Assembly (NCBI GenBank): GCA_024663395.1 | Contig: JANFAH010000023.1 | Span: 930,001 to 994,000, forward strand | Direction: 5' to 3' | DNA length: 64,000 nt | Origin: Pisolithus tinctorius | Lineage: Eukaryota; Basidiomycota; Agaricomycetes; Boletales; Pisolithaceae | Shown here: piece by piece, positions 14,942-52,210 of the stretch | Numbering within the stretch: position 1 is the stretch's first letter | Layout of the letters: the number at the start of each line of letters is the position of its first letter | Notes under the pieces: generated by a model | Seen by the model: the letters and a program-made list of their open reading frames with translations, nothing else | Databases searched by the model: none | What the model was told of the DNA's origin: nothing | Program-made: the position numbers and the translations under genes

Positions 14942-17556
14942 TCAACGATTAAACGAGTGCGAATTGTCAGCAACGGTAAACCACTTATCGTCTCGCTCCA
15001 GATCCCCAGGTCGAATGTTGGCAAGGTCCTTGGTAATGCCTCGGTCGTCAACCACACTCATCCCAAGTAAAGAAACGATCTCGTCGAGGACGGCGTCGCG
15101 ACCCGGGATTATATAGTCTCGACTCATGATCTGCTCGCGAGCCTCGCGCTGTATTGCTGACTGATAGTATGCGTTGAGAGCCAAACCAATGGCTCCACGG
15201 GAAAGCTTCTTTTCGTTGTTGTTGGCAGTGAGTGCGAACAATATCTCCAAGATGTGGACCAGATCGACAACATAAGCCATGAACTTGCGATGCACGTCCG
15301 GTCTAAGGAGAGAGTTTACTCGTAGGAAATGCCGAATATAATGTCACCCACAGTCGCTGATATATCTCGTGAACCCATTGTACAAGACCCAGTCCCGCTT
15401 TAAACGGCAGAACTATAGGCAGAGCAAGCAAGATGGGAGCTCCTGACCTTGGTGTGTGACTCCTCATAAGTGTGATGTAGTGGCGGCTTACACAGTAACA
15501 CTTACTCGCATGTGTTTTTGGTACTATCAGCGCGAGGGAGACGCGGCGCCGACGAATCAATGGTCCCCACTAGGTTTATCATCAGTTCTCGAAATTCAGT
15601 GCTATAGAGATACTACGGGACAGGCGTCATTTAGTAGATCACTGCGGCGGTGATTGAGACACTCACTTGAGATGGGTCATTGAAATTCCAGACGGACACA
15701 AGGTCAGTATGAATAACAGCAAGGCATTCAAGAATCGTATGATTGCCAAAATTGGCACCAGAAGTCAGTGCACTCCAATATCCTTCAAAACATGAGTATC
15801 AATGTTTCACATAGTTGCCAACCATACACGGTCGCTTACTCTGCTTGCCAACACTATATGAGAATACGACTTCAGGTCGTGGTATGGAAACAAGTGAGCG
15901 CAACTTACGTTATCGATCCCTCAATTTTCAACCTTGGCGAGACTCTCTGTGCCATTTGGGTCACGACCGAAACCGGGGATGGTGTGCCCAGCTGGGACCC
16001 GAAAGTCGCGATGACCTTCTCATGGGTGAGCTCAATCAGTTCCTTAATCCCTTGTTTATGCTCGCCGCCCTCTAACAACATAGTAGTTGGACCGTGGAGC
16101 GAAGTCAAAGTGAATTAAACCTACCGCAGCTAACTGTGAGATGTGCTAGGTTTGGGTTTGCGGTGAACTCTTGGATGGGCTTGATGCAATGCTTTTCTAA
16201 GTACTCTTCTGCAGCTAAGCCAAGGTTGGCAACTCTCTGCAGTTGCAAGCTGACCAGAAGCCTGTCATATTTCGTGAATACCACTATGGTGGGAACTAAC
16301 GGCAGTCAAGGGGTTGGAAGATATGACAAAAGTGCTGATTTGCTTACTGTCCCCGATAACACCCATATCTTCTCGCAAGAGTCTCTCTGCGCTTTTTTCC
16401 ATAAGCCGTTCGCCTTGATGTACGAGGGGCGTTCGGAAGCACAGCCTATGGGTATAACCGTCCGTCAGGGTCTTCATGATCATCTTGGATTGGCTTACCA
16501 GACCGCATGCAATTGATCTTTGATATGTGGCTGATGTTTACGGTTTTCTACGAACGTCTTCACATCGCTATAGTTGTTGCGTTCCGCCGGTTCGAAGCCC
16601 TTGCTGTCATGTAAGACAAACCGGTCGTTCTGCGGCGAGGTCAGTCCTTTCTCAATATCAGCTTCTCCCGGCTTGTCATCCTCGGCGACCTGGGAATTTC
16701 ATGAACAAAGAACATGCACATGTTCTCGGTTACTCAACCGCCTGCTCGATTCCAAAGGCTTGGCCAATAAGTGTAGATTTCCCGACACCAGACTGAAATG
16801 ATATCGTCGTTAAAAATAAACTCTGCGGCGCCGGCCAGTGTTCACTACCTGCCCGATTACCAATACCCGAAAACTAGCGTAGAAATGAGAGATATTTGTG
16901 CAGTGGTAGGTTGAACATACTCACCGAGGGCACTCATTAAGGAGGTCCTCAGTGGTAGGACGAAGGTCACCAGTATTCGGTGGCGCAGACATTACATTCT
17001 GTAGATGCTCCATCAGAACCTTGGAGGCTCCATCCAATTGCACGTACGACCGGGGTGCTACTGGGTGAGAGTCCAATAATGATGCCCAACTTGTTGCGCG
17101 TTATCTGAAACTCTACGGGCGTTTAAATGGAACGCGGAAGAAGGGGCTAGTTCATCCTCTGACTTACTCTGCTCTGGCAAATTAGACAGCATATCCTTGA
17201 CTTTGATTCGGACGACCTTAACGGCCGGAATGAATTTAGAATACCACGTTTTCCTATGAACGGATAAAGAGAGGGCTTCGCCTTCAACGGTACTATTGGG
17301 TACGAAGAACTTCAGGAGCGGTAAGCGTGTCAAACAGACACTCTTACAGAGGCTGAGGGAAGTCTTCCCGAAAGAGGCTTTTACTCTGTGATCGAATACT
17401 GCGTCGACAACCGGGGAGGATTAACTCGATAAATTCAATATCATCCTCCCCATTCTGCAGCTCAATATCTGCCTCATCGGCGTCAGTCTTCAGAATCTTG
17501 GGGAATGGAAATTTCGAACGTCGTACATGAGATTCGCAGAGGCTGAGCTACGGACA
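14942..17556 (-). CDS. G-domain-containing P-loop GTPase (fungal HSR1-like family)
   Basis: Soluble GTP-binding protein of a family expanded in agaricomycetes. An N-terminal C2-like part (VDAVFDHRVKASFGK, LLKFFVPNSTVEGEALSLSV) precedes the G domain. G1 is RVLVIGQA joined over an intron to SGVGKSTLIG (about 16750-16860), G3 is FVLHDSKGFEPAE (16570-16610) and G4 is VVFTKYDRLL (about 16260). The C-terminal helical region contains LKIEG, VHTDLVSVWNFNDPSQ-like and TEFRELMINLV segments, then RKFMAYVVDLVHILEILFAL. Many ~50-nt introns. The proposed start (MSVAQPLRISC, 17556) is followed near 17490 by an apparent 4-nt frame break before DADEADIELQNGEDD, so the N-terminus is uncertain. It is the paralogue of the gene at 25,964-32,263. 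Confidence 0.8.
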
Positions 17557-25963: not shown

Positions 25964-28900
25964 ATGGCGCCGTGCTCTCTTCGTTCCTGGTGGCGTTCGT
26001 TGCGGCGTTCTCAACCTCCGAGTAGCAGTGTTGGTGTGTTACCCCCCAGTGAAGCCGCTTCATCAGTTGTCCCGGACGCAGTCGTCCCAACACGGGCTTC
26101 AGATGATTGCTTAGATCCTACCGAGGTCAAAAAGCAGATTGATGGCATCCCTTCTCAAACCCCGAGTGGCAATGCTGGTGTGTTACTAGTTCCGATTCCA
26201 ACTGAAGCCACTCCTTCATATTACTTCGTATGCAGTTGTCTCTACACGGGCTTCAGACGATCGCTTAGATCCTACCGAGGCCAAAAAGCAGATTGATCGC
26301 ATCCCTTCTCAACCCCTCAGTCGCAGTGCTGGTATATTACTCCCCACTGAAGCCTCTCCTTCGGTTTCTCCGGATGCAGTCGTCCCTACGCGGGCCTCAG
26401 ACTATCGCTTAGATCCTACCGAGGCCAAAAAGCAGATTGATCGCATCCCTCGTTTTCGCATTCTTGTGATGGGCAGAGCAAATGCGGGTAAAACAACTAT
26501 TTTACAGCGGGTCTGTAACACTACGGATCAGCCTGAGATCTTCGACGGAAAAGGAAAGAAGGTACGTGTGGGTGTGTTATGTGCTTCGTACTTGTCAACA
26601 TGTCATTCTGCCAGGTTGATACTGGGGCGGTGCGGGGTTCACTGGGGGTAAGGCCACCGCATGAAATTACATGGTGTTCATGTCAAACTTATGCAGCGTG
26701 GCTACCATAACATTGAGGATGAGCTAGTGTTTAGAAGTAACCCGCACTTTGTGTTCCATGACTCTTGTGGATTCGAGGCGGGGAGCGAGGCAGAGTTTGA
26801 TGAGATGAAGAAGTTCGTCACAGATCAAGCTAAGGCCACTAAACTAGAGAGGAGAATACATGCAATTTGGTAGGGACATGTCTGGCTAGCATGCCTGGAA
26901 GTGCACTGACCTGGTCCTTGTATTTGATTTAGGTATTGCATTCCTTTGAATGAAAGCCATAGGATGGTGATGGCTGCTGAAAGGAAGTTCTTTAATGAGT
27001 GTGATTCAGGACATGGTATGTGTACACAAATATCATATCACACTTAGTGCAAAGATTGAGGATCCACACAGTTCCTGTGATTGTGCTACTAACAAAGGCA
27101 GACACCTTAAATCTTGATGCAGTTCAGGAGCTTATGAGAAGGGGATTAACTGTGGATGATGCAATGAAAGGGGCACCAGAGGTAGAAAAACAGCTGCAGA
27201 AGGGCTGTCTGGAAAAGATCAAAGGGTGGCTGGATGAACTGAAGTTTCCACCTCAAAACTACCTGATGCTCACTGGTAAGTAAGTCATGAATAAAAAAAA
27301 CTGTGGATTAACATGTGTCTCTCCAGGCATGGAACAGGAGAGTGCAGATTGTGGAGAGCTATTGAGGTGTACAGCAAATGCTTTGACAGAGGAAGGGCTG
27401 CAAGGACTGCTTATATCTTCACAGCAGTCAAACTTGGGACTGTGCATGGAATTTGCCATAATGGAGTGAGTGGTAAAAATCAAGTTCTACAGGGTACTGA
27501 CTACAGAAAGGACATTGAAAAAGACCATGAAACATGTGGCTGATCAGATTAAACTAGATGGCTTAGCATATGCCCTTGCATCATGGTTCCCATTTGTAAG
27601 CAACTGGTGTGTTGGAGGAATGAGAGGCTAATTAGGTGATAGGTGGTGTGTGAAATTCTGCAAGTGGAAGTATAACTAATGCTGAAAGTGATTGTTGCTG
27701 TTGTGCTTGACTGTGATTGACAGAATGTAAGTTGACTCATTGAATATGGTGGTGGATGCATGCTGACATGTTCACTCCCACCCTGGGATTGGGGTTCATA
27801 GCATGTGAGTGGAGTCATGGCAGATGGTATTGGATGCATGCTGACATATGCATTGCCACCCTTTGGGCTGGGGTTCATAGCAAGTGAGTAGAGACATGGT
27901 AGATGGTGGTGGATGTATGCTGACATGTTCACTCCCACCCTGTTGGACTGGGGTTCATAGAAAGTGAGTGGAGTCATGGCAGATGGTAGTGGATGCATGC
28001 TCATGTTCACTGCTACCCTGTTGGACTGGGGGTCATAGGTTGTGAGTGGAGTCTTGGCAGATGGTGGTGGATGCATGCTGACATGTTCACTCCCACCTTG
28101 TTGGACTGGGGTTCATAGAAAGTGAGTGGAGTCATGGCAGATGCTGGTGGATGAGTGCTGACATATTCATTCCCACCCTGTTGGACTGGGGTTCATAGGA
28201 TGTGAGTGGAGTCATGGCAGATGGTGGTGGATGCATGCTGACATGTTCGTTCCCACCCTGTTGGACTGGGGTTCATAGGGAGTGAGTGGAGTCATGGTAG
28301 ACAGTGGTAGATACATGCTCATGTTCACTCCCACCCTATTGGACTGGGGTTCATAGACAGTGAGTGGAGTCTTGGCAGATGGTGGTGAATGCATGCTGAC
28401 ATGTTCACTTCCACCCTGTTGGTCTGGGGTTCATAGATTGTGAGTGGAGTCTTGACAGATGGTTGTGGAGGCATGCTGACATGTTCACTTCTACCCTGTT
28501 GGACTGGGGTTCATAGATTGTGAGTGGGGTCTTGACCAATGGTGGGGGATGCATGCTGACATGTTCACTCCCACCCTGTTGGACTGGGGTTCATAGACAG
28601 TGAGTGGAGTCATGGCAGATGGTGGTGGATGCATGCTGACATATTCACTTCCACCCTGTTGGACTGGGGTTCACAGTATGTGAGTGGAGTCATGACAGAT
28701 GGTGGTGGATGCATGCTGACATGTTCACTCCCACCCTGCTGGATTGGGGTTCATAGGGAGTGAGTGGAGTCATGGCAGATGGTGGTGGATGCCTGTTGAC
28801 ATGTTCACTCCCACCCTGTTGGACTGGGGTTCATAGCTTGTGAGTGGAGTCATGGCAGATGTGAGTGGATGCCTGCTGACATGTTCACTCCCACCCTGTT

Positions 28901-31900
28901 GCACTGGGGTCCATAGCAAGTGAGTGGAGTCTTGCCAGATGGTTGTGGATACATGCTGACATATTCATTCCCACTCTGTTGGAGTGGGGTTCATAGGCAG
29001 TGAGTGGAGTCATGGCAGATGGTTGTGGATGCATGCTGACATGTTCATGTTCACTCCCACCCTGTTGGACTGGGTTTCATAGAGAGTGAGTGGAGTCATG
29101 GAAGATCATGGTGGATGCATGCTGACGTGCTCACTCCCACCTTGTTGGACTGGGGTTCATAGTATGTGAGTGGACTCATGGCAGGTGGTGGTGGATGCAT
29201 CCTGACATTTTCACTCCCACCCTGTTGGACTGGGGTTCATAGCTTGTGAGTGGAGTCATGGCAGATGGTGGTGGATGCATGCTGGCATGTTCACTCCCAC
29301 CCTGTTGGACTGGGGTTCATAGAAAGTGAGTGGAGTCATGGCAGATGGTAGTGGATGCATGCTCATGTTCACTGCCACCCTGTTGGACTGGGGTTCATAG
29401 GATGTGAGTGGAGTCTTGGCAGATGGTGGTGGATGCATGCTGACATGTTCACTCCCACCCTGTTGGACTGGGGTTCATAGCTTGTGAGTGGCATCATGGC
29501 AGATGGTGGTGGATGCATGCTGACATGTTCACTCCCAACCTGTTGGGCTGGGGTTCATAGATTGTGAGTGGAGTCATGGCAGATGGTGGTGGATGCATGC
29601 TGACATGTTCATTCCCACCCTGTTGGACTGGGGTTCATAGCAAGTGAGTGGAGTCATTGCAGATGGTGGTGGATACATGCTCATGTTCACTCCCACCCTG
29701 TTGGAATGGGGTTCATAGGATGTGAGTGGAGTCATGGCAGATGGTGGTGGATGCATGCTGACATGTCCACTCTCACCCTGTTGGACTGGGGTTCATAGCA
29801 AGTGAGTGGAGTCATGGCAGATGGTGGTGGATACATGCTCATGTTCACTCCCACCCTGTTGGAATGGGGTTTATAGGATGTGAGTGGAGTCATGGCAGAT
29901 GGTGGTGGATGCATGCTGACATGTCCACTCTCACCCTGTTGGACTGGGGTTCATAGAGGGTGAGTGGAGTCTTGGCTGATGGTAGTGAATGCATGCTGAC
30001 ATGTTCACTTCCACCCTGTTGGACTGGGGTTCATAGATTGTGAGTGGAGTCATGGCAGATGGTAGTGGATGCATGCTGACATATTCACTCCCACCCTATT
30101 GGACTGGGGTTCATAGTGGGTGAGTGGGGTCTTGGCAGATGGTGGTGGCTGCATGCTGACATGTTCACTCCCACCCTGTTGGACTGGGGTTTACAGTATG
30201 TGAGTGGGGCCATGGCAGATGCTGGTGGATGGTTGCTGACATGTCCACTCTCACCTTGTTGGAATGGGGTTCATAGGGAGTGAGTGGAGTCATGGCAGAT
30301 GGTAGTGGGTGCATGCTGACATGTTCACTCCCACCCTGTTGGACTGGGGTTCATAGGATGTGAGTGGAGTCATGGTAGATAGTGGTGGATGCATTCTGAC
30401 ATGTTCACTCCTGCCCTGTTTGGCTGGGGTTCATAGGATGTGAGTGGAGTCATGGCAGATGGTGGTGGATGCATGCTGACATGTTCACTTCCACCCTGTT
30501 GGACTGGGGTTCATAGTGGGTGAGTGGAGTCATGGCAGATGGTGATCAGTGCATGTTGACATGTTCACACCCACCCTGTTGAACTGGGGTTCACAGTATG
30601 TGAGTGGGGTCATGGCAGATGCTGGTGGATGTGTGCTGACATATTCATTCCCACCCTGTTGGACTGGGGTTCATAGGATGTGAGTAGAGTCATGGCAGAT
30701 GGTGGTGGATGCATGCTGACATGTTCACTCCCACCCTGTTGGACTGGGGTTCATAGGAAGTGAGTGGAGTGATGGCAGATGGTGGTGAATGCATGTTGAC
30801 ATGTTCACTCCCACCCTGTTTGTCTGGGGTTCATAGCATGTGAGTGGAGTCATGACAGCTGGTGATGGATGCATGCTGACATGTTCACTCCCACCCTGTT
30901 GGACTGGGGTTCACAGTGGGTGAGTGGAGTCATGGCAGATGGTGGTGGATGCATGCTGACATGTTCACTCCCACCCTGTTGGACTGGGGTTCATAGACAG
31001 TGAGCAGAGTCTTGGCAAATGGTGGTGGATGCATGCTGACATGCTCACTCCTGCCCTGTTTGACTGTGGTTCATAGCTTGTGAGTGGAGTCATGGCAGAT
31101 GGTGGTGGATGCATGCTGACTATATTCACTACTGCTTTGCTTGACTTGCATGCATAGAATGTGAGTGGATGGATGAAACATGGTAGCCCTGGATGGTTGC
31201 TGAATGTGATTTTCTCTTCTACCCCATTGCATCTGCATTCATAGCATGTGAGTTAAGTTGTGGCAGCATCTGCTGGGGCAATAGATACACTCATGATCCT
31301 TATTATTTCACTTTTGGCCTCTGGGTCTTAGAGAGTGAGTGTTGAGGAAATTCCCCATTTAGCATGCTTTTCACCAGGTCTTCTCATCAAACAGATGGTG
31401 ATCTTCATTACTGCATGTATCTCTGCTCTATTGTTGAGACAATGCATTAGGATGTAGGTGCAATCTTCTGATGGAGTATTCCTTTTTTCTTATTTATCCT
31501 GTATCTCTCTCAGCATGTTAGTTCTTGTAATTCCTCTAAAATCCTGACAAAGTTTAACCTGTTTCCAGAATGTATGGTTTTGTTCAACATCCCACTCTTA
31601 TTCATTGCCCATATGTTTTACAGTTGGTTTGTCACTCTTTTTCCCACTTCAACATTGGTTCCTGTTTACCTTGGTATCTTGTTAGGTGGTATGTTTCAAT
31701 CCCTTTCCCCTGCTTACTGTCTATGATGTGTTGAATTGATTGGTCACAGCAAAACATCAAACATGAAAGCAGTTACATCTCCATCCCTATGTTATCCATG
31801 TCAAGGCAGCCTTCCATGCTGGCAATTGCAGAACATGGCATTGGTAAATGATCTCTTTTGATGATGCTTCAATCTGAAGCTCATGATTACAGGTTGTGTA

Positions 31901-32263
31901 ATTGTCTTTGAATACTTATTTTTCCAGTTACAGGTGGTCAAGGATGGGGGTACTACACAGAAGGATTTGCAGCAGGATCTGACAGTGATTGTCAGCAAAT
32001 ATCAGAAATCAGGTGTCCAAAAGACTGTTATTGCACACATTGCAGAAGCCTTCCAGCAGCATGGTGACAGTGTGGATGATTTATGCCCCATGCTTGTAGG
32101 TATAGCACAGGCAAACCAGATGTGTAAGGCACATTCCTTACCACATTGGTGGAAGTCCTATCTGAATTGTCCACAGCAAAGACATTCCCAAAATGAAAAA
32201 AAGATAATCTCAACTCTTATGTGCTTCACTGTTCTTGTTTTTCCCTTGGTTTCCATCTGCTAA
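25964..32263 (+). CDS. G-domain-containing P-loop GTPase with single-codon exon array
   Basis: Paralogue of the minus-strand GTPase at 14.9-17.5 kb. G1 is RILVMGRANAGKTTI (about 26457-26500). After an intron come VDTGAVRGSLG and RGYHNIEDELVF; G3 is FVFHDSCGFEAGSE; then IHAIW and YCIPLNESHRMV; G4 is VIVLLTKADTL; then LQGLLISSQQSNLGLCMEFA and KTMKHVADQIKLDGLAYALA ending SWFPF at 27595 in phase 0. Next is the intron/codon array (27596-31749). Normal exons resume with QNIKHESSYISIPM (31750-31843), a ~50-nt intron, and GCVIVFEYLFFQLQVVKDGG, KDLQQDLTVIVSKYQKSGVQ, aligning with the paralogue's VHILEILFAL region. An in-frame TGA near 27467-27469 is either inside a 27-nt intron or a CGA-to-TGA mutation, and the N-terminal repeats are frameshifted. 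An alternative end uses an intron 32096-32267 and stops at 32279. Confidence 0.78.
26085..26455 (+). repeat. Three tandem ~135-bp repeats in the GTPase N-terminus
   Basis: Three copies encode versions of RASDDRLDPTEAKKQIDRIP separated by Pro/Ser-rich spacers. Copy 2 has one extra base near 26220-26255 compared with copies 1 and 3, so the upstream ATG at 25964 is out of frame with the G domain. Either translation starts elsewhere or the copy is mutated. Confidence 0.7.
27596..31749 (+). repeat. Tandem array of ~50 intron-like units separated by single triplets
   Basis: Core array 27,727-31,160, period 78-80 bp. Each unit starts GTGAGTGGAGTC, has a branch-like CTGAC near its middle, a pyrimidine-rich CACTCCCACCCTGTT and ends GGGGTTCATAG (or TTCACAG). 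Between the AG of one unit and the GTGAG of the next there are exactly three nucleotides, which vary: CAT, CAA, AAA, GTT, GAT, GGA, ACA, ATT, TAT, CTT, GCA, AGA, AGG, TGG, GAA, AAT. I count 45 in the repeat series, one before it (AAT, 27724-27726) and five after it in ordinary, diverged introns (GAT 31451, CAT 31514, AAT 31569, TTG 31624, GTG 31686). A possible further ATG lies at 31395. None is a stop codon. Units that lack GA in CTGAC explain the 78-bp periods. Confidence 0.9.
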
Positions 32264-39380: not shown

Positions 39381-42300
39381 TCAGCTGTCCGCGGAAAAAG
39401 CCTCCACATCATCATCAGTGGGGTCATCCTCAGCATCCTCAAGGAGGCAGTCTAGTTCTTCATCATCCAACCCAGTAATGTGAGTCACAGTTGCACGGGT
39501 TTGAGACTGTGGGTGGTAGGGAAGTAAGTGGAATGCAGTGAAGCAGAGTTTGGAGATGGAGCCATCCAACTTGGCCAGCAGGTATGAGCCCCCAGTGGTC
39601 TGACGAAGGACGACCATGGGACCAGTGTACTGCGGCTTCATCTTCTGGTTCAGCTCTTTCTCTATGCAGGAGTTGTGAACAAGCATGAGGGTGCCAGGAG
39701 CAAAGTTATGGTCTTTAATGCGATGCTGAAAGGTGGCTTCAAACTGCTGGATAGACTGGAAGCGTGTGTGGAGGACATTGCCATGGACCTGGGCTAGGTC
39801 ATCCTGACACTTCTGTAGCTGGCACACATGCCAAGCTATCAGTTCTGTGGTAGTCAGCAGTGTTGCATCATCGCAGGATAGGGGTAAGAGGAAGGTGGCC
39901 TCAGCGAGATCAAATAGAAACAGTGGCTTGACACCATGTACCATGAAGTAAGGGGATAAACCTGTGGATTTCAAGATGGTGACCTGCTTGGCCCAGAACA
40001 CGGAGTGCGCAATGGTGTGCCAGCAGTGGTCGTTGTTTTCGCAGCTCTTCATGATAGCCTTGTGAACATCATAGTGGCGATGCTCCACAATGCCATTAGC
40101 CTGAGAGTTGTAAGGAGAGATATGGATGTGACAGATATGATATTGTGTGGCTAGGGCATCTAAGGCCTGGACAAATGTGGGACCATTGTCAGTGACAATT
40201 TTGGTGAGCGGACCCCAGTGACATAGAATGTCCTCGAAGATGAAGGACACAAGCATGGTACTATTTTCCGCGCACAACATGTGCCATTCGGGATATGAGG
40301 TGAGCGCGCAACAAGCCTGTACTATGTAGCAGTAGCTGCCGGCTTTGGGCATCAGCATCATGTCAATGTGAGCTTTATGAAACAGGCCCCCTATCATGGG
40401 CACAGTGGGGGGGATATGAAGCTTCTGCATCTGGCAGATCTGGCATTCATGACAAGTGCAGACATACCACTTCACATCCTCGACAAGAAGAGGCCACCAA
40501 AAGCGGAGGAGAAGGCATGTGTGGACCATGAAGACACCTTTGTGCCCGAGGTCGTCATGCGCTTCTTTGATGAGACAGTACTGCTTGGATTCATCGACAA
40601 CTAGCTGGTGCTGTCTGTGCAGTTCCCTGCACCATAAGTTGTCATCTAGGAGGAAGAAGCAACTAGCAGAATTGAAGAAAGATGAGTACTGCGCATCAGT
40701 AAGGTCAGGAGGTCGCTCACGGGTTGCGAGGAATGTGCAGATCACTTCTATCTTCGCTTCACATGCCTGGGCTTTCACGGACTGTGGGATGGCAGGGTCA
40801 TCAGGGGTATCGGAAGGGTTATTAGCACCAGCAGTCACAGAGAATGTGAGATAGAAGGATGCAGGTGGTGGGAGGCTCACCCGATGGTAAGTGGGTGGCG
40901 GTAGGGAATGGTGATCTTGACTGGAATGTGACATAGGAGGTGGGCAGTCATTGGCAACCTGTGTAGAGAAAGAGTAAAAATGGTCCAGCCAATCCTCATG
41001 GTCATCATCCTCGGGTGGGTCGAGCCCTGACCACAGACACCAGGACAAGCCATCAGGGCTGGCATGCCTGTCTGCGGGAACGTGGACGAGTTTGAACAAG
41101 AAAAGGAGGACACCAGCGATCCAGCGATTGATCGTCGCATTAGGCTGCAGATCTGGGTTATTTATCATGCCCTTAATATACTTTGCATCTACCTCCACAG
41201 TGAAGTTAGTGAGACTGAAGATGTATACGTGTACCATGTGCAACGCACGGAAGAGACCATACAACTCAAGCTTGGCCTGGGAGTAGCAGCTTTCCACTTC
41301 ATTGAGGGTGATGGATCCGAAGCGACTTGGGTACCATCTGCCATCTTCACCGAGCTGGTAGAGGATGTAGCCAACTGCAATGACCGATGTGTCTACTGCT
41401 AAAATTACTTTGCAACCACACTCGTAGTCAATCCTTCAGAGTGCGGGGGACTTTACAATTTCATCCTTGAGTTGTTGCATGGCAGCATGTTGCGCCTTGT
41501 CCCATGTGAATGGTACATCTTTCCACATGAGCATGACTAGCAGCTGTGTGACCTTGGCGAAGTCTTTGATGAAGATGTGTAGCACACCGCAGACACTGAG
41601 GAAACTGCAAACCTGAGTCAGGTTGCAGCACTCGGGCCAGTAACAGATCTTCTGCACTTTGCTTTCTTCAGGAATGCGACCTTCAAAGGTGCACTTGTGG
41701 CCAATGATCACAGTGGACAGAGTGGCTAGCACAAACTTCTTTGCCGAGACAGTGGCTCCAACATTCTGCAAATGCTGAAGGATATGGTTAACAACTATAC
41801 AGTGATTCCAGATAAATTTCTGAATCCCAGGATTCTCCAGGATAGTCTCATAGGAGCTGTCTGTGCGCTGATAGCAGGTGGTCTTGGATTTTATGGGGAC
41901 GTCATCTATGAAGGGCAGGGTATGACGCAGGATCTCATCCTGGAGAACAAATGCAGTATCTCCCTGGTATACCTGTACCACATTCGCATGACCTTGCAGC
42001 AGAGTAGTAAGCTGATGCAGTCCAAGGGGGGTACTGAAGGTGGTGAGGTCATGGGAATCGACGTGGAGTGCGCACTGGTCATACCTGGAGTAGAGGTCCA
42101 TCATCGCATACACCGTGTATCCAGCAAAGGATTCTGTGAGGTGTTCTATGAAGGGTGGAACGGACGCATCACAGATGGTCACTGCATTCAGGGGCTGTAA
42201 GTCATGCACAAGGTGAAGAGACTTTCCATCTTTCTTTACTATGCAGAACCAGCGAGAGCAGTAAGCTGCTGTAGAAGGTTCATACATGCTGGACTTGATG

Positions 42301-42992
42301 CAATCTTTAATCATGTCTATGACTTGGGCATGTATTGCGTTTGGGATGGGGATATTGCATTGGACCCAAGGTGTGTGCAGAATCGTAGGAATCTTTACTG
42401 GTGGAAAATAGTGTTTGTCTAGGTGTCTGCACTCTGTAATGTCCCAAGCGAATGCGAGCCCATGGACCGAAACGAGCCAAGTTACGAGTTTAAGTTCTTC
42501 TGGCCAAAGCCAATCTGCAGGATCAAGGTCAAGTTCTGCGGCCCATTCGGCAGTGAAGTGGATGCCCAGAGCGAAGTCTGGTGGATGGGTTGGGAGTGGT
42601 TGGAGACCAGCAAGCGGGTTGTCAGGCAGGCTGCACATGATGCAGTATTCTTCCACCATCGGGGCAGGTACCGTCCGAACCTTCTTGGCAACTGGCTGGT
42701 AAACAAGGGTGCGAACCGTGGGATCTAGTTGATAAATGCTGCCAAATGTGGCTATAGCAGAGGGGTTTAGTATTGTCTGAGTGGAGGAGAGGAAAGCGAA
42801 GGCAGGCAAGGGTATCCCAGTGGGTATGTTCTGCGGTACAGGTGCCACGGGTGAAGGGAAGTTTGTTGAAGTGAAGGCTAGTGATGATACTGTAGGACTG
42901 AGGAATGGATAACAGTGGCTAAATAGGAAACAGGACATCTTAGTAGGCTCTCCCTGACTGTTTGGTGGATCATCAATATTCAAAAACCCCAT
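39381..42992 (-). pseudogene. Pol of element X: reverse transcriptase, RNase H, integrase
   Basis: One reading frame of about 1200 codons with a single stop. Reverse transcriptase: KDGKSLHLVHDLQPLNAVTI, then LPFIDDVPIKS with FIDD at the catalytic site. RNase H-type connection: VILAVDTSVIAVGYILYQLG. Integrase: zinc-finger-like CHECQICQ, and the catalytic triad in HIDMMLMPK, VTDNGPTFVQALDAL and SQANGIVEHRHYDVHKA. The premature stop is TGA at 41436-41438, where the family has Arg, so it is a CGA-to-TGA change. Apart from this and the gag stop, the polyprotein is remarkably well preserved. Confidence 0.85.
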
Positions 42993-44014
42993 TCGACTAT
43001 ACTCTGGTGACTATGGCAGTGCTTGCCACATTTACAGCGCAGACAGCCCTCACGCCATGGGCGCGTGGGCAAAGTGTACTTGCAGCTGTCGTTTGGGTCT
43101 CGGAGAGTGATCTGCTGTCCACCATTGGGATAATCATTTGTTACCACACTCATAAGGCAAATGAACAGACGCCCAAGGAGCATGTCAAAGTTGGCATGTT
43201 CAATTACTTGAACCTGTAGCATGACTGGCCTGGCACCAAAGTCGAGTTTCAGGTTCTCTAGTATGCCTACAGTAGTGTCTTTAGACATGTTAGCAGACAT
43301 CATAGTCATGAGATGATTGCAGCGCAATGGGAGCCTGATCTTTTCCCAAACATGCCTGGGCATGGCAACGATTTCCGAACTGGAATCTAGTATGCAGTTG
43401 ATTGTGACGTCGGTCCCAGGGACCTTGGCTTCGATGCAGCAGAGTGGCAGAGTGTGGTGAGCTACGATGGAGCCATCATCACCACGGATAACGCAGTCTC
43501 CATATTTGCATGCAGTTCTTTGAGGATTGTGGCCAATCAGTTCATTCACTTGTACTCCTTCTTCATCATCACTACAAACTACCTCAATCTCATTTGTGGT
43601 GACACATTTCGCCATGGTGATGTCTCTGAACTGTTTGCGAAACTCTGGGGCTACTGCAAATAATTCTTTGACTGGCATGGCAATGCTGGTTTCGAGTACA
43701 TGCTCCATGATATGCTTGGGCATGGCTTCGTCTTCAAGAGGGAATGAGTAATGGTACTGGTTTTGATTGAAAGCTGCTGGGTACGGTGTCTGTGATGGAA
43801 CAATTGCCGCGGGAATGGGGTCCTTGTGCACGGGCGTTGGAGCTGGACTAGTTGGAGGAACATATGGTTTCATAGCAGTGGATGTTGGTGCAGGTGTAGA
43901 GGGCTCGGATGCCTGGCAAGCGGCACATGAACTTTGAACACCAGGGGAAATGATTTCCTCTTCAACAGTGGCTGTGCATGGGTCGACTTGTGGAGGGTTG
44001 GCAGGACATGCCAC
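42980..44014 (-). pseudogene. Protease region of element X
   Basis: Aspartic protease part: VTINCILDSSSEIVAMPRHV (DSSS where DSGS/DTGS is usual) and LGRLFICLM further on. The upstream part is Pro/Thr-rich. It overlaps the start of the RT frame by 13 bases in another frame, and the 5' side is joined to gag only through one or two frame changes near 44020-44200. Confidence 0.7.
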
Positions 44015-44174
44015 GGGTTGAGCTGTGATTTCGACTCCATCAAAGTGGGCTTTCCTTCCACAGGGAATGACTGCTCCCTATCTGCTTGGTAGGTAGCCCA
44101 AGCTTGAGCGACATATGCTTGGAAGTCAGGGTCAGCTAAGTCTGCAACAGGTTCATCTACATCTTGGATGGTGT

Positions 44175-45776
44175 TTAAGAAGGCAGAAGGCTGGATCTCC
44201 AACTGCACGTCAATTTTGGGATGAGCAACGCAGAAGAGGTTAGTGGTGCCTTGTGCGGAGCAGCAGGAGTCGCAGCACACGTGCTGGCCAGGTCTCTGTC
44301 AGCCATGACATGGTCAACAGCCTCTCTCAGTGAGTTACATTCAGGGAAACATGGGATTCGGCTCCTGTCCACCAGATAGAGATGGTTGTCTGTACCTCTC
44401 GTGATCTTACTGGCGCAGATATAAACTTCAACGAGTGCACACATCCTCATCCAGTGGTTGGGGTCTGCGCAGAGACTGCAGCTGGGTCTGCGTTGCTGTG
44501 GTGGAGGCTGCGTCTGGAAGTTGTATTCCTGTTTAACGACAGTACCAGAAGGTGGCACTTGCGGCATGTAAGCCAACGAGGGAGGTGCAGCTGGCAAGGC
44601 CACAGTACCCATCGTTGGTACTGCGCTATGAAGAGCAGATCCTGTCAGAAGGAACTTGGCGGCTTTGATGACTTCTGTGAGTGGGTATGGATCGTCAGGG
44701 TGGAGGTCAGTGCAGACTATGGAGAGTCGATGACGAATTCAGTCTGCGATGGCCCTCAGGAAGCCATTCAGGAACATGGAATCCCATTCTGTCTCTGCAA
44801 GCTTTTTAGTTTTAATGAGCAGGGCAGAAATCTTAGCGAATTTCTGCTGGTATTCTCCGAGGTCATCCTGGTTCCGCATAGGCTTGGACTGATATTCTTT
44901 GACGAGGTACTGCAAGTCTGCACGGCAGTAGCGGTCATCACCCTCACAGCCAGGGTACAAACCCTTAACAGCTACTACAAAGGCATCCCAGTCATCGGCC
45001 GTGGGAGTGGCTTCCAGAAGCATTTGCCAGACCTCAGCTTCTTCGAGGTCAGCATAGTGGATTGCAGCTCTGATCTTGCCACGGTCATCAAGAGCAGCGA
45101 GAGTACCAAGGAAGTCAATGTCTTCGAGGTAGCACGGAAGCTGTGTGGGAGAATCTCCACTAAATTTAGGTGAGTTTTGTGTACCATGGAGTGGCATCTG
45201 AAACTGAGGATTAGCCATTGGTGGGTTAACCTGTTGTGGCAGTGCCGGATTGGTAATGGGTGGAACAGGTATTGGTTGTGGGTGCGAAGTGGTTGGTATA
45301 GTGTGCAAGCAAGCTGGTAGAAGTGTTGGTGGGTTACTAATTGGCTGATGGGTGGTCTGTGACCGAGTGAGTGGTCGTGGCAGCGTGGCAGATGGAACTG
45401 AGAGTCTGGGTATAGATTCAGAGGTGTCAAAGAGATGGGCAAAAGAGGGCATTGGTGATGATGAATCAGATGATGTGATGGGTGTTAAAGGTGATGGTGG
45501 GGTTTTGGGCCTTCAGGGAGTCAAGTGGATAAAGCCACCGGGAAAATCAGGGGCAGTGAGATCTAGGTGATCCGACACAACAGATATCTGATCTGCCGAA
45601 ATATCAGGAGGAGTGATCATGGGTAGTACCCATGGAATGTCAGTGGGTAATTGCACGTGATCCGGTGTTACGGGTGAAACAGGGCAGAAAATGTTGGAGT
45701 CATCCGACAGGTTGAGATTGCGAAAGTGCAGGCATAAATTTTCTAGTTCAGTACGTTCGGCAGTGTGCCTGAGCAA
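44175..45776 (-). pseudogene. Gag of element X
   Basis: The capsid-like part starts near MPSFAHLFDTSESIPRL (45452), with an open extension to 45776. It includes KFSGDSPTQLPCYLEDIDFL, YADLEEAEVWQMLLEATPTA, a DDWDAF region and the zinc knuckle CSLCADPNHWMRMC near 44470. The in-frame TGA at 44739-44741 replaces Arg (IADRIRHRLS expected), again a CGA-to-TGA change. Confidence 0.75.
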
Positions 45777-45798
45777 CCTTCTGGAAGTGACAGCAGAA

Positions 45799-45819
45799 CC
45801 CCTCGCAGTGGGCTCCAGT
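45799..45819 (-). other. Primer-binding site of element X
   Basis: On the minus strand, ACTGGAGCCCACTGCGAGGG follows directly after the LTR end ...CCTACA. Starting with TGG two bases inside the LTR is typical for a site complementary to a tRNA 3' end. I cannot name the tRNA. Confidence 0.6.
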
Positions 45820-46472
45820 TGTAGGATAAGTCCAAGTAGCTGTATAATACGAGCTAGATGACTTAGATAACAACAATAAAAAATGAAGGGAACGAATTGT
45901 TCATCCCAAGGGATTCTGGACCATCAGGACTAGAAGGTGGGACCCAGCGCTTTGTAGCGGTAGTGATTTGTGACATGCGTGGCATGGTCTACAGAGTAGT
46001 ACTGGCAATGCAAGCGGTGCGAGCAGTATACGTAGTTTGTGTGCAGCAGAATGCGAGATGTGCAGTGTAGACAAAGTGTAAAGGAAACTCATGGTGACCT
46101 TCCAAGTGCCAAAAGGTCCCATTCTGTACCTAAGTACAGGGCTGTATAGTCCGGACAAACCCAGAACCTAAGTAAGACAGGGTACAGTAAAGGAAAGCCA
46201 TGCGACAGTGCATACACAGAAGACAGGCCAAAACAGAGGCCAAGGGTATACTACAAGCACTAAAGGAATAGAGACTGATAAGAGAAAGAGTCTGAGGAAA
46301 AACAACAACTGGAGCACAGCAGCCACAGGTATAGCATTGCACAAGAGGGAGCGAGGGCGTGGGAAGGTAGTGCATGAATGATGGTGAACGCAAGAGGGGA
46401 GTGGACATAACAGTAGTCATGGAACGGTTAATGATAGGGGCTTATGTGTCCAGGGAATGCGGATTCCTCACA
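45820..46472 (-). repeat. 5' LTR of element X (LTR B)
   Basis: 653 bp, near-identical to LTR A. Differences are mostly C/T and G/A, often at CpG in one copy. The right edge is followed by CTGG (target duplication half). Confidence 0.88.
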
Positions 46473-49180
46473 CTGGGTCAACTGGAAATACTTGGCTTTT
46501 ATGTAGACGCTGTCACCCACCTTGAAGTCTGGGGCTGGCATGTGCTTAGCATCTGCCAGTCCTTGGTAGCATTGCTGGGCAAGGGCCATTTCTTCATGTA
46601 GGTACTGGTGCAGTGAATCTAAGTCAACTGCATAATCATGAGCTCAGTTAGATGTGAGGTCACACTCAGGGAAGACTGATATATTAGGGTGGTAACCCTT
46701 ATTAGCAAAGAAGGGTGATACTCCAGTTGTAGCGCTGGGTGCATTGTTGTAAGCAAACTCAGCTAATGGTAGTAACTCAGCCCAGTTATCCTGTTGGTAG
46801 TTACAGTAGACCCAGAGATATTGTTCAAGGGTCTGGTTGGTGCACTCTGTCTGACCATCCCCCTCTGGGTGATACCTGGAGGTGAAGTGTAGATGCATGT
46901 CTAGAGCTTTACCTAGAGACTGGAAGAAGTGGGACACAAACTCTGATCCCTGGTCTGAGGTTACATGGGCCAGTACACTGTGCTTAGAGAACACGTGCAT
47001 GAGGAAGAGCTTGGCAAGCTCAGGGGCTGTGATGGTGTTGTGAGTAGGTATGAAGATGGCTTGCTTCAAAAGCTGGTTGACCATGATGAGGATGGTGGTA
47101 AAGCTGGTTGAGGCCAGGAGTTGCTCTATGAAATCCATCAAAATGGAATTCCATGGCCCCTCCAGCATGGGGAGCTGCTTGAGCAGGCTGTAAGGCCAGT
47201 GGCAGGGTACCTTGGCCTGAGCGCAGGTAGTACAAGACCAGACATAGTCCTTGACAAATGTCCTTAGGCTGGGCCAAGTGTATTTGCACTGGATGAGCTC
47301 TAGAGTTCTGTTCTGGCCGAAGTGGCCAGATAAAGGATGATCATGTTTAAACCTCAAGACACAAAGGTGAAGGTCATTAGAGTCCAGTACATAGATTCTT
47401 CCATCTAGATGGAGGAAGCTGGTGTCATCAACTGACCACCGGGAATCTGATGTGCCTGAGAACTGGACTTGGGTGACTGGGTCTGAGGGTAGGGCTGAGA
47501 GAATGTCATTATGCAACTTCTCCATGTCCATCAGTGCAACAGCATGTAGGTCCGGGTATTCAAGGTAGGTGGCATGCAGGGAGGTGGCTAGCTGTTCCTG
47601 TGTGAAGACCAGTCTGAGATTCTGTGGGTTGACCCAGGCATAATTGCTATCCCCCTCTTTGGGGTAGACATCCCATCATCTAGTTAGGGCATTGGGCTTA
47701 GCACTGAGTTTACCAAGTCTGAACCGGATAACCATATTGAATTGCGACAGAAACTCAGACCAGCATGCCTGGCACCAGGTTAATACCTTTGAGGTGGAGA
47801 AGTACTCCAGGTTCTTGTGATTGGTGACAATGTCAACTGGTACTGCAGCTCCTTCTAAGTAGTGCCACCATGTCTGGAATGCCTCAAAGATTGTGAGTAA
47901 TTCCTTATCATGGGTGTCATAATTTAGCTTTGGGGCTGTTAAGGTGTGAGAATAGAATGCAACTGGCTGGATTTGGCCATCACCACTGGTGATGGACAGG
48001 ATACTGGCTATGGCATAGTCAGAAGCATCAGTCTTGACAGTAATAGGAGCTTCTGGGGAAAAGTGAGTTAGGACCAGGGCAGTGGTGAAGGCCTGCTTGA
48101 GTTTGTTGAAAGACCAGCAGCACTCCTCAGAAAAATTCCAGGGAGCACCTTTGCATGTCAACTGGGTTAGAGGTACCACTATGTCTGAGTAGTTAAAAAT
48201 GAACCAGCAATAGAAATTGGTGAAGCCCAGGAAGGACTGAATGTCCTTTACCTTCCAGGGCTCAGGCCAGTCACAGATGGCTTTGACCTTTTCTGAGGAC
48301 ATGGTAAGGCCAGTTGGGGACAAGTGGTAACCCAAGTATTCCACAGAGTCCAAGTGGAATTCACACTTCTCCAGTTTGGCATACAGGCCATGCAACTGTA
48401 GCTGGCAAAGAACCTCCCAGACATGCTGCTTGTGTGATGACTCATCTCTGGAGTAGATTAAGATGTCATCAAGGTAGACGACAACACAGACATCTAGCAT
48501 ATCTGCAAAGATTGAGTTGACAAACTGCTGGAAGGTGGCTGGGGCATTGGTAAGGCCAAAAGGCATCACCAACCACTCATAAGACCCATAGTGCATTCTA
48601 AAGGCTGTTTTCCACTCATCACCAGGTGCAATCCAGATGAGATGGTATGCATGCCTTAAGTCAATCTTAGTGTAGATTTTGGTGTGACTAGGGGAGTCTA
48701 GTAGATCAGATATTAGTGGTAGGGGATACCAGTCTTTCTTGGTGAGCTTGTTAAGGCCCCAGAAGTCAACACATAACCAGAGTGAACCGTCCTTCTTCTT
48801 TACAAAGAGGACTGGTGCAGCATAGGGGGAAGAAGTGGGCTGGATGAAACTGGTAGTCAGGTTTTCATCAATGAAGGCCTGGAGAGCTTGCAGCTCGACT
48901 GGGGATAGCAAGTAGATGGTTCCTATGGGTGGTGTAGTACCCTCTTCCAGTTCGATCTTAAGATTGTACTCCCAGTGTGGGGGGAGAGTAGAAGCCTTGG
49001 CCTTGCTAAAGACATCAGCAAAGTCATGGTAGTCCTTTGGTACACCAGCCAGGTCTGGTGGAGGGCCAGTAGAAGTAGACTGGCCCAGGACTGGGTCCAA
49101 TGGGCATAGATGAAGTTGGAATTGGGTAGATCCCTCTAGTTTGCAAGCATGTACATATGCAGCTGCATTGATCAGGGCAA
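46473..49180 (-). pseudogene. Pol of element Y: reverse transcriptase, RNase H, integrase core
   Basis: Same frame throughout, interrupted by two CGA-to-TGA stops (47676-47678 and 46644-46646). RT: FVKKKDGSLWLCVDFWGLNK, YEWLVMPFGLTNAPATFQQF and the active site VVYLDDILIYS. RNase H: ITVKTDASDYAIASIL and NHKNLEYFSTSK. Integrase: HHCC zinc finger HPLSGHFGQNRTLELI...CTTCAQAKVPC, catalytic segments SILMDFIEQL, VTSDQGSEFVSHFFQSLGKA and HPEGDGQTECTNQTLEQYL. It continues after element X at 36422. Confidence 0.88.
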
Positions 49181-49191
49181 TAGGGGAGCTT

Positions 49192-49703
49192 TCAGGGGGT
49201 GAAAACCGGTGAGTTGACAGACAGTACAGATGGCACAGGGCCAGGGTTGGGTTGGTCAGGTAGACTGGGTTTGGGAAGACCAGTTAAGACTGGTGTGGCA
49301 GGGGGTGTTGACGGGGTTGGCATTCCTCCTGTAGATGTCCAGAAAGTTAGACTGCTCAATACCCAATCAATTGACAGATTGTAGTGGGTGAGCCAGTCAT
49401 GTCCAAGGACTATCTTACATTCAGAATCCAATGGGGCTAGAAACAGGGTTACCAGGGTGACATTGCTGGTCACAAATTGAACCGAAAGATCTACTGCTTG
49501 GGTGATAACAAAACTTGATGACCCATCAAAGAGCCAGAGTTGGATAGGGGACATGGGATAAGGGGCAAAAAAGTGTTGATTAACAAAATCTTTATCTATG
49601 AAGCTATGTGTGGAACTGGAGTCCACTAGAGTATGAAACTGGGGTAAACTGTGACTGACAATAGAGACATGGGGGGTTAACAAGTTTGGGTTAGAAAGAG
49701 CAG
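49192..49703 (-). pseudogene. Protease of element Y
   Basis: Reads ALSNPNLLTPHVSIVSHSLP, then FHTLVDSSSTHSFIDKDFV, in which DSSS replaces the usual DSGS, and CKIVLGHDWLTHYNLSIDW, the second conserved block. The left end shifts frame into the RT region. The right end is cut by insertion Z1; the original NASALSNPN is restored when Z1 and one GCAG copy are removed. Confidence 0.75.
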
Positions 49704-51561
49704 TGTGAGTCAAAGTGTGGAAAGGTGGTGAAAACCAACCAAAACCAACACCAAAGACAAGTATGAGTGAGTGGTGGTTTGCCTCTGCAGAACCTGGATG
49801 GCAGAGAAATCTAAATGTGGGGGAATTTCAATGGCAGGTGCTCCTAGCACAAGTCATTGACGAGTTATGCAAGAGCAGATGAATGAATGATGACTGGATG
49901 GGGGATGCTGAACAGAGTGAAGGTGTTCAGCCAAAAGGACTTCTTGGAATAATGGACTTTGATAAAATGTGCTCCTGGTACAAGTCATTGATGAGTTATG
50001 CAGGAGTGGAGGGATGACTAAGCAAGACTGCTGACTAAGAGGAAGCTTCAGATGATGAAGGATGGCAGATAGACTCTTCCAAATGAGCCTCAACTACCAA
50101 GTATATGAATGATTTCAGATAGACCCCTTTGTGGAGCCTCAACTGTTGATGATGAGATAGGCACTGAACTGACTGCTGAGTGAATGGCTTCTGATTGCTT
50201 GTGGATTGCTTCTGGGTAGCTAAGTACATGGGGGTTTATATACTGTGGGGGGGGCACAGCTTGTGACAAACAAGGCACAAACACTTGGTAAGTAATGAGT
50301 AAGGACTGAGTAATCATGATGAGTAAGTGAGAAATGAAAGGTAAGCAAGCAAAGAAGATTGGTAAGTATTGGCAATGAATGAGTCAAGGATAGTCAAAAT
50401 ATCACAGAATGAGTCAAATAGAATCAGAAACTGAGTAAGCACACTGATATCACATTAGGGGGTGGCAATGCAAGTTAGATCTCGGTGGAGACATCTCTAG
50501 ATCCAAAGATGGCATGACAGACAGTCAGTGTTTCCAGATAAGGAAGTATTAATTCCAGAATTGAAGGGCATGAGTCAGGCATCAAAGGGGGGCTAGGGTG
50601 TTAGGGGTCTGTGGGGCAACGGGAGCATACACGATCACATCTCCCACCCTTTCATCCTCTCAGTGAAGTTAACAAAAACTTCATGAATGGGGCTCTGATG
50701 GAGGAGGAGAAGGGGGCACATCTTCTGCTGGATCTTGCAGTAAGAAGGCAAGATGCACATCATACTCATCATGGATGTGATCAGGGAGGCTGGAGAACAG
50801 TAGACCATACTGCAGCTGTCACAATGCAGGGAGAATGATGGATGAGACTGGAATAAAGCCAGTGCAGGGAGCAGGGAGGAATGATCTGTATGCTTCATCA
50901 AGAGGGGAGACTGACATGACCACATAAGACCTTTCTAACTGAGTGACAGACCTGAGGCAACCAAAGAACGTCCTTCTGGAAGTCATACTGACAAGGAGAA
51001 CATGCTGACCAAGCTGCATGGGACAAGATGGGGCTGACAATGATGGGATGAACCAGGGGGCTTCAGGATGGAAGTTGGTGGGAACGCCTGGCAGATATAC
51101 ATAGCCATTGTCTCTGGCAAATGAGACAAGCAAGATGATTGATGAAGAGGCAGCCATGATTGATGGACTTAGCAAAATGAGTGTCTGATGGATGGAGTGC
51201 TGTAGAAATGCATAGGGTGCAAGGATCCTCTCCAAATTTGGAAGGAAGAATTGTGGGGCTGAGCACTTTAAGCAAGTGTGAGAACAGAGTTGATATCTTT
51301 GGAAATGGTGGAGATACGACGAAAACTGGAATGCCATACACAGGCACTAAAAACCTTTTAATGCACACTTAACTCACTTCCTCTTTTCTCTTTAGCACTG
51401 ACGACTCGTTCCTGTGTGAAGGATGACTGTTAATGTCCAGCAGTCTTTCTATGCATGAGGCCTTTAGTCTTCATCTGCATGCATGGGCATTGTGCACAAC
51501 TCATCAACGAGTTAGGCAGAGTCAGCTGTAACCATGTCCACAACACCTTTGGTGTGTGACA
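49704..51561 (-). mobile_element. Z1: ~1.86-kb LTR-like element
   Basis: Minus-strand ends TGTCACACACCAAAGGTG and TTTGACTCACA, flanked on both sides by GCAG (49700-49703 and 51562-51565). It contains a conserved ORF on the minus strand (51170-50819 region: SIILLVSFARDNGYVYLPGV, SRRTFFGCLRSVTQLERSYV, FIPVSSIIL) and near its other end a TATATAAACCCC box (about 50236 on the minus strand). Two further long copies (Z2, Z3) and a fragment (Z4) are in the window. It may be a large solo LTR or a non-autonomous LTR element. I do not recognise the protein. Confidence 0.72.
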
Positions 51562-51859
51562 GCAGATGCATTGAGATGAGCCTCTGTGGGTGCACAGCTG
51601 GAGTCAATGCAGCTCTCAGTCTGTGTGGAGTCCTGAGAGCTGCTACTTATTTTTTTGCCTTGGGGGCAGAGCCCAAGGTTGAGGCTGGTGCTGCCTCAGA
51701 GGTTGCCACAGTGTGAGCTTTGGCTTTGCTGGCTTTCTTGGGGCACTTATCTGTGAAATGTCTGGTTCCCCCACAGAACATACAGAGGTTATTGTCTCTA
51801 CAATGCTTGCACTCCTCCAGTGTCAACTTGCCATCCTTGCCCAGTTTGTTTGAGTCTGG
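51562..51859 (-). pseudogene. Gag zinc knuckle of element Y
   Basis: Reads LTLEECKHCRDNNLCMFCGG, TRHFTDKCPKKASKAKA: a C-x2-C-x4-H-x4-C nucleocapsid knuckle preceded by extra cysteines. Bounded by Z1 (left) and W2 (right). Confidence 0.75.
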
Positions 51860-52210
51860 TGTGAGGAAATATAAAAGTATGTGACGGTTGAGGATGGAGG
51901 ACCAGGATCTGAGAGGGAGTGAGTAGGACCAAAGGGGCTCCTATAGTCTGAGCAAAGAGTGTAGGGAGATAGGAAACTGTCTAGGGGAGTCTGGGGCAGT
52001 CTTTCTCTTGTTCTCATCTTTTGGGGGTAACTTGTCTATCTCTTAAAAACTTACAGTACCAACAAACTGTAAGTAAGTGCTGACTAAGCACATAAAAAGC
52101 GAACTATGGTACTCAAGTATAGTACCCACAACAGTAAGTAAGGAAACCATAAAACAAATAAAATAGAAATTAATACCCAATCCCATAGTAAGGAGATCTC
52201 TCTCCTTACA
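51860..52210 (-). repeat. Solo LTR W2
   Basis: 351 bp. On the minus strand it starts with the palindrome GTAAGGAG...CTCCTTAC and ends ...TTCCTCACA. Flanks are CTGG (51856-51859) and CCGG (52211-52214). Removing it with one CCGG copy restores TPKPDSNKLGKDG in Y gag. Confidence 0.8.

Follow-up and report, generated by a model that had tools for sequence, protein, structure and literature searches.

A tandem array of predicted one-codon exons in a GTPase gene family of Pisolithus tinctorius

Can a segment of a protein be encoded one codon at a time, each codon being an exon of its own between two complete introns? The question is raised by a GTPase gene in a stretch of 64,000 nucleotides of the fungus Pisolithus tinctorius (contig JANFAH010000023.1, positions 930,001 to 994,000), in the following called the window (G000:C23:930001-994000 of the 92.5-Mb assembly that was searched). 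Between two ordinary exons of this gene lies an array of near-identical introns separated by isolated triplets, and in all likelihood the array represents 51 one-codon exons, each spliced between two complete introns. Its parts are:

27596..27723, + strand: first intron of the array region, 128 nt (GTAAGC...GACAG), holding an optional extra triplet GTG at 27643-27645
27724..31688, + strand: 51 predicted single-codon exons spelling NHQKVKDGTIITYGLQARYLKDLIQDQDRIWYGDDWYDEHWTLNHRDHNLV, between GT-AG introns (from unit division, entropy and chain counts)
31395..31397, + strand: possible further single-codon exon ATG in the 116-nt intron 31335-31450 (split 60+3+53), with a weak donor GTGATC
31689..31749, + strand: last array intron (GTATGT...CACAG), from unit division

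The whole region 27596-31749 is made up of 52 introns, all GT...AG (4,001 nt), and 51 triplets (153 nt), with a spacing of three bases between AG and the next GT throughout. A first-pass annotation, made from the letters of the DNA, had described this arrangement and had read all of about 51 triplets as sense codons. Both statements held (51/51 sense codons), as did its remark that the triplets vary; the kinds number 18, not about 16, with the two optional triplets GTG and ATG excluded. As predicted very short exons between GT-AG introns the 51 triplets resemble microexons. With the optional GTG included, that is over 53 introns, 34 array introns have a length of 77 nt and 44 start with GTGAGT. 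Over the 52 introns, the lengths range from 52 to 84 nt except for one intron of 116 nt and one of 128 nt, and the diverged introns at the right end have 52-116 nt.

The variability is concentrated in the triplets. In 41 aligned units the three triplet columns had entropies of 1.96, 1.74 and 1.35 bits, every other column had at most 1.02 bits, and the AG before the triplet and the GTGAG after it were invariant (41/41). Across 820 unit pairs the per-site difference was 10 % in the flanks and 67 % in the triplets, and for the 18 closest of these pairs (flank difference <2.6 %) the triplets still differed by 63 %. The first-pass annotation had cautioned that units duplicate together with their triplet, but this link proved weak: the triplet was shared by 17 % of the 18 closest pairs versus 5-9 % in larger bins. 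A chain of the form YAG-NNN-GTNNG extended over 52 steps in the array, the optional GTG included, and over at most 2 in the rest of the window on both strands. The diverged tail (31244-31760), whose introns had been said to leave single triplets as well, carried a chain of 6 compared to at most 2 in 2,000 dinucleotide shuffles.

On both sides the array is bordered by coding exons of the GTPase gene:

25964-26177, 26236-26561, 26615-26647, 26697-26869, 26933-27015, 27072-27275, 27327-27465, 27511-27595, + strand: eight upstream coding exons; their 419-aa translation is identical to the start of P0001
31750..31843, + strand: downstream coding exon QNIKHESSYISIPMLSMSRQPSMLAIAEHGI(G), in a frame common to the homologues P0002, P0003 and P0005
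31893..32260, + strand: next coding exon (G)CVIVFEYLFFQLQVVKDGG..., similar to P0002, P0005 and P0121

The upstream exons encode a G-domain protein, and the last of them closes with ...ASWFPF at 27595 in phase 0. The first 419 residues of the spliced translation equal those of the annotated P. tinctorius protein P0001 (BKA82DRAFT_1001553), a comparison on which an intron of 27 nt or 41 nt before the last upstream exon was dropped in favour of 27466-27510. The C-terminus of P0001 falls inside the array, the model reading into an array intron (SWFPF-H-VSGVMADDGG...). The right exon, QNIKH, starts in phase 0 at 31750, in a frame shared with homologues such as P0005 (QSIKHD); phase 0 on either side had been noted before and was confirmed. 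Exon 31893..32260 is open up to a TAA at 32261-32263.

Evidence that such codons enter a transcript came from sister genes. The locus L017 (G000:C109:42500-50200) corresponds to the gene P0087 of P. tinctorius Marx 270, with exons of 92-98 % identity. There, an exon ending SWFPNTK is followed by triplets spelling DLPPYEQPQYQQQEGETREQWYERRYQEEQEQEQQHEQEYQEQ, which are 43 single-codon units with introns of 75-83 nt. The protein P0100 continues after SWFPNTK with exactly this 43-codon string: its residues 424-466 correspond to 43 consecutive AG-NNN-GT triplets, and shuffled P0100 peptides (n=200) matched runs of at most 7. Altogether 43 of the 44 residues of the P0100 insert match L017; the last one is Q, for which L017 has CGA and its near copy L018 CAA. 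The 43 matched units span 3.4 kb of genomic DNA, a length for which the P0100 contig of 1,695 nt is too short, and upstream of the array P0100 runs on without a break across the intron positions of L017. The contig is thus read as presumably spliced RNA; its source tag lgn we take to stand for Logan assemblies of public reads. If it is RNA, the microexons of L017 are included in mature mRNA. The earlier claim of a stretch of about 50 residues with a separate exon for every codon is then borne out at this family locus for 43 codons, and the window gene would be spliced like the L017 gene. Single-codon exons are very probably spliced in this GTPase family. The pattern departs from a Dscam-type choice of one cluster exon per transcript, as P0100 carries 43 consecutive units.

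Two further proteins have inserts at this point. P0004 is a database model of a paralogue (C41) that shares 89 % identity with the window gene over 905 bases, and after WFPF it continues with HLVVDGGQG... In 851 bases read at its locus, L045, these nine residues appeared as nine single-codon units (9/9 codons read: CAT CTT GTT GTT GAT GGA GGA CAA GGA), and five of the eight introns between them were 100 % identical to the window intron at 30920. P0135, of 519 aa on a 1,703-nt contig, has an insert at the array point and then continues into the C-terminal part; a close P0135 locus was not found in this genome, where the exon matches listed reached at most 81 %. The position matching the optional GTG at 27643-27645 is absent from P0100 and P0004, and the intron at the place of the first array intron is skipped whole in both (113 nt in L017, 128 nt in L045). 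The reading of this GTG as an exon, suggested by truncated models, is weakened accordingly.

The window gene is one of many. Arrays were present in all 28 stretches fetched around exons of the family, with 12-58 codons (some arrays being partial or near copies) and a median intron of 77-79 nt. The chain search behind the arrays put no penalty on stops. The opposite strands of the fetched stretches gave chains of 1-6, and 26 other control strands gave at most 5, the longest at 42601-52200 (+) of the window. A chance origin of the array was rejected by the entropy, the chain lengths, the shuffles and the control strands. Eight automatic cut-outs, L009-L016, hold array parts of 13-18 codons each, of which only L014 is a further locus and the others overlap counted loci. 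The 906-base G-domain stretch of the window gene had 41 matches, 28 of them at >=84 % identity, itself included. A junction motif of the window type matched exactly 635 times genome-wide versus 0 times for the reversed control; no stop and no C-ending triplet occurred among the 100 matches listed. Neither viral contigs nor contigs of prokaryote genomes contained the motif (0 matches). At G000:C6:2497599-2499257 (-) the junctions among the matches listed lie 78 bp or a multiple of it apart and show only a few kinds of codon (GAT, GCT, TTG, GGA, CAA), perhaps a young expansion.

For a count of codons, 18 of 29 arrays (28 fetched plus the window) were kept, each of 15-58 codons. Left out were L018 (decayed, 3 stops), the partial arrays L020, L021 and L024 and, as near copies, L026, L028, L033, L037, L038, L040 and L043; the nine codons of L045 are in none of the counts. 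The 646 codons of these non-redundant arrays contained 0 stops versus 25.8 expected by composition. A third base C was never found, and CAG occurred 4 times, TAG 0 times and AAG once, compared to 53 GAG and 39 CAA. In the window, with the optional GTG included, 0/52 array codons end in C versus 110/573 other codons of the gene (p=3.7e-5), and 0/52 are NAG versus 62/573 (p=0.006). A YAG triplet would create a second acceptor, and a C-ending triplet would put a C before the donor and make a CpG. Given a CpG ratio of 0.54 in the window, mutation may contribute to the missing C-ending triplets; 41 CGN codons persist nonetheless among the 646. Ten of the 18 arrays end with NLNEL and L035 with KLNEF, and the other seven differ. 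One of the two NLNEL leucine codons varies synonymously among the ten arrays (CTT 6, CTG 4), as would be expected if the single-codon exons were translated under selection.

The comparison of arrays gave indications of how they change. No difference was seen between L032 and L033 over 2,095 compared sites, apart from one 82-nt unit that only one of them has. Introns inserted into an older ordinary exon are disfavoured, because arrays vary in length and this pair differs by a single unit; besides, array codons never end in C versus 19 % of the other codons of the gene. Block duplication of several codons was rejected as well, with 5 repeated codon pairs versus 3.7 expected and 0 triples. Active hypermutation of the triplets is unsupported, near copies showing about equal change in triplets and other sites. 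Units and paralogues may rather exchange or convert by way of their introns, while selection maintains the variety of codons.

The protein family, which the first-pass annotation had already called a GTPase, belongs to the P-loop GTPases: in 57 sequences the motifs G(R A N A G K)T T and L.TK.D, P-loop and TKxD-like, are invariant or nearly so. Pfam matches were weak (Arf, MMR_HSR1, RsgA); among five proteins only P0135 clears the cut-offs, while P0034 lies exactly at one. Septins, IRG, G-alpha and other GTPases are similar in their G domain, the matches covering mainly model residues 132-411, which are the G domain. No solved structure matched by sequence at E 0.001, in which the family differs from IRG, septin and dynamin-like GTPases. 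In the AlphaFold model of P0034 the residues 410-471, with the insert, are predicted as a low-confidence stretch between the helix at the end of the G domain and a C-terminal helical part. Our guess is a variable recognition or interaction loop.

Taken together, a mechanism can be proposed. Splicing would take the introns out of the pre-mRNA one at a time, and every removal would add one amino acid to the predicted flexible loop. Recognition would occur by intron definition, and every removal would leave the next donor ready, stepwise like a ratchet. Exchange between near-identical introns could lengthen or shorten the arrays by whole units, and selection would favour codons that remain readable, compatible with splicing and diverse, which would allow the loop to be rebuilt residue by residue with the frame intact. 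Whether this serves to diversify the loop codon by codon is a more tentative matter: it is conceivable, though short of an even chance, that GTPase genes in their dozens draw on one common pool of single codons with introns on either side, from which recombination in the introns adds, removes or swaps one residue in frame while splicing rebuilds the loop. If true, this would amount to shuffling exons in the smallest steps possible, and it might supply a recognition loop.

Other explanations have to be weighed. All triplets might be spliced in, yet the array be a selfish tandem intron repeat, an introner-like expansion that is tolerated and leaves a functionless loop. This is unlikely; the strong likeness of the introns within and between loci would agree with it, as would the low-confidence loop predicted for the P0034 insert and the range of 15-58 codons, but neutral tolerance explains neither the excess of triplet over flank difference (67 % versus 10 %) nor an NLNEL ending common to 10/18 arrays. 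It is also improbable that cells skip different one-codon exons and so obtain many in-frame isoforms per gene. Any skipping of one-codon exons preserves the frame, and P0063 and P0081 have short strings after WFPY; however, P0100 lacks none of its first 43 codons, the string of P0081 seems to be followed by a retained intron and P0063 just ends, so that neither shows skipping.

Far less probable is the removal of the window array as one intron of 4,154 nt, the triplets being leftovers or rarely used. The first-pass annotation had raised this possibility, and phase 0 at both ends does permit it. Several database models join WFP(F/Y) straight to the right exon (P0005, P0018, P0022, P0026, P0038, P0056; P0087). 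These models are poor evidence. P0087 equals P0100 up to the array except for one residue and the 5' end, yet it skips the array; since P0087 omits codons that P0100 carries, array-free models say little about skipping. Similarly, P0038 and the later model P0034, which seem to describe a single gene of P. microcarpus, are 56 residues apart at the array point and also disagree in the last residues. The absence of stops, the near-absence of CAG and TAG and the shared NLNEL are unlike the interior of an intron. A tandem satellite or assembly error unrelated to coding has a negligible probability, for although Tandem Repeats Finder reports the array as a tandem repeat of period 80, arrays stand beside family exons in 28/28 fetched stretches and a transcript matches at one.

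Some observations weigh against single-codon splicing with selection on the codons. The direct-join models just named are among them, and a search for a transcript of the window gene among sequence collections found none. The RNA origin of the lgn contigs is deduced from length and missing introns. L017, judged by the mismatch at residue 44, is a near copy and not necessarily the very source of P0100. P0100 ends inside its array, and the only sequences that show an array joined to the exon after it are P0135 and database models. The frequency of GAG means that avoidance of NAG is not general. L018 (G000:C4:2501900-2509200), the near copy of L017, has three TGA triplets, two at CGA and one at CAA of L017; from its sequence it looks like a decaying copy, perhaps through CpG decay. 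Finally, near copies differed at 9/957 triplet sites versus 210/26,309 other sites (11 pairs summed, some sharing a locus), a result at odds with active hypermutation that does not account for the contrast within arrays.

With respect to known systems, introner elements are near-identical intron copies that multiply, and the likeness to the present introns lies in these copies. Within the family surveyed here, however, they form a tandem row with three bases between neighbours, at a single position of the gene. In recursive splicing, pieces of an intron are removed stepwise with the donor beside the acceptor and no base left; here three bases lie between AG and GT, and each step would leave one codon. 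Single microexons of 3 nt or 1 nt have reportedly been found in Arabidopsis and in Fusarium CYP621A. In Drosophila homothorax, a single microexon of one codon or less is spliced into the mRNA (PMC7392893). Exons of one codon are very probably spliced here too, but such known cases, as far as these sources describe them, involve one exon each, compared to dozens in a row in the present family, where many genes have them and the short introns between them are near-identical. The micro-exon genes of Schistosoma have exons of 6-81 bp (3-81 in the abstract), mostly of 15 bp, and introns of 0.1-5 kb; like the present genes, they are described as diverse, with many tiny exons, mostly multiples of three, and as hard for automatic annotation (PMC10526429). 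They differ from the present arrays in that here every array exon has 3 bp and the introns have about 77-79 nt and are alike. Many exons in multiples of three are thus shared with the schistosome type, but its long introns (0.1-5 kb) are not (52-84 nt except 116 and 128 in the window). Single one-codon exons are known rarities; in this genome they seem to occur by the dozen, in many genes, and to encode one protein segment. No report of such an array of one-codon exons was among the open-licence papers that the literature searches listed, in agreement with the first-pass annotation, which knew of no described case.

The array would put two questions about the spliceosome to the test: by what means it defines a three-base exon flanked directly by two splice sites, and whether it proceeds step by step. 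The array also offers a natural system of a protein loop able to gain, lose or change a single residue without damage to the frame. A WFP motif was present in 89 of 145 homologues, and 71 of these 89 stop within 60 residues after the motif (4 lgn contigs, the rest database models); these early ends point to a blind spot of annotation.

Further features were observed in the window. The N-terminal region of the GTPase gene (25964-26400) contains tandem repeats of ~130 bp (DAVVPTRASD.RLDPTEAKKQIDRIP); inside one of them, repeat sequence forms an intron. P0006 has more copies. A related G-domain fragment lies at 16486-16674 (-). Retrotransposon open reading frames (ORFs) were located at 39381-49100 (-) and 61227-62144 (+) (reverse transcriptase, integrase, RNase H, protease; RVT_2), and an ORF at 4047-4769 (-) matches ORC5 (Pfam ORC5_C, ORC5_lid).

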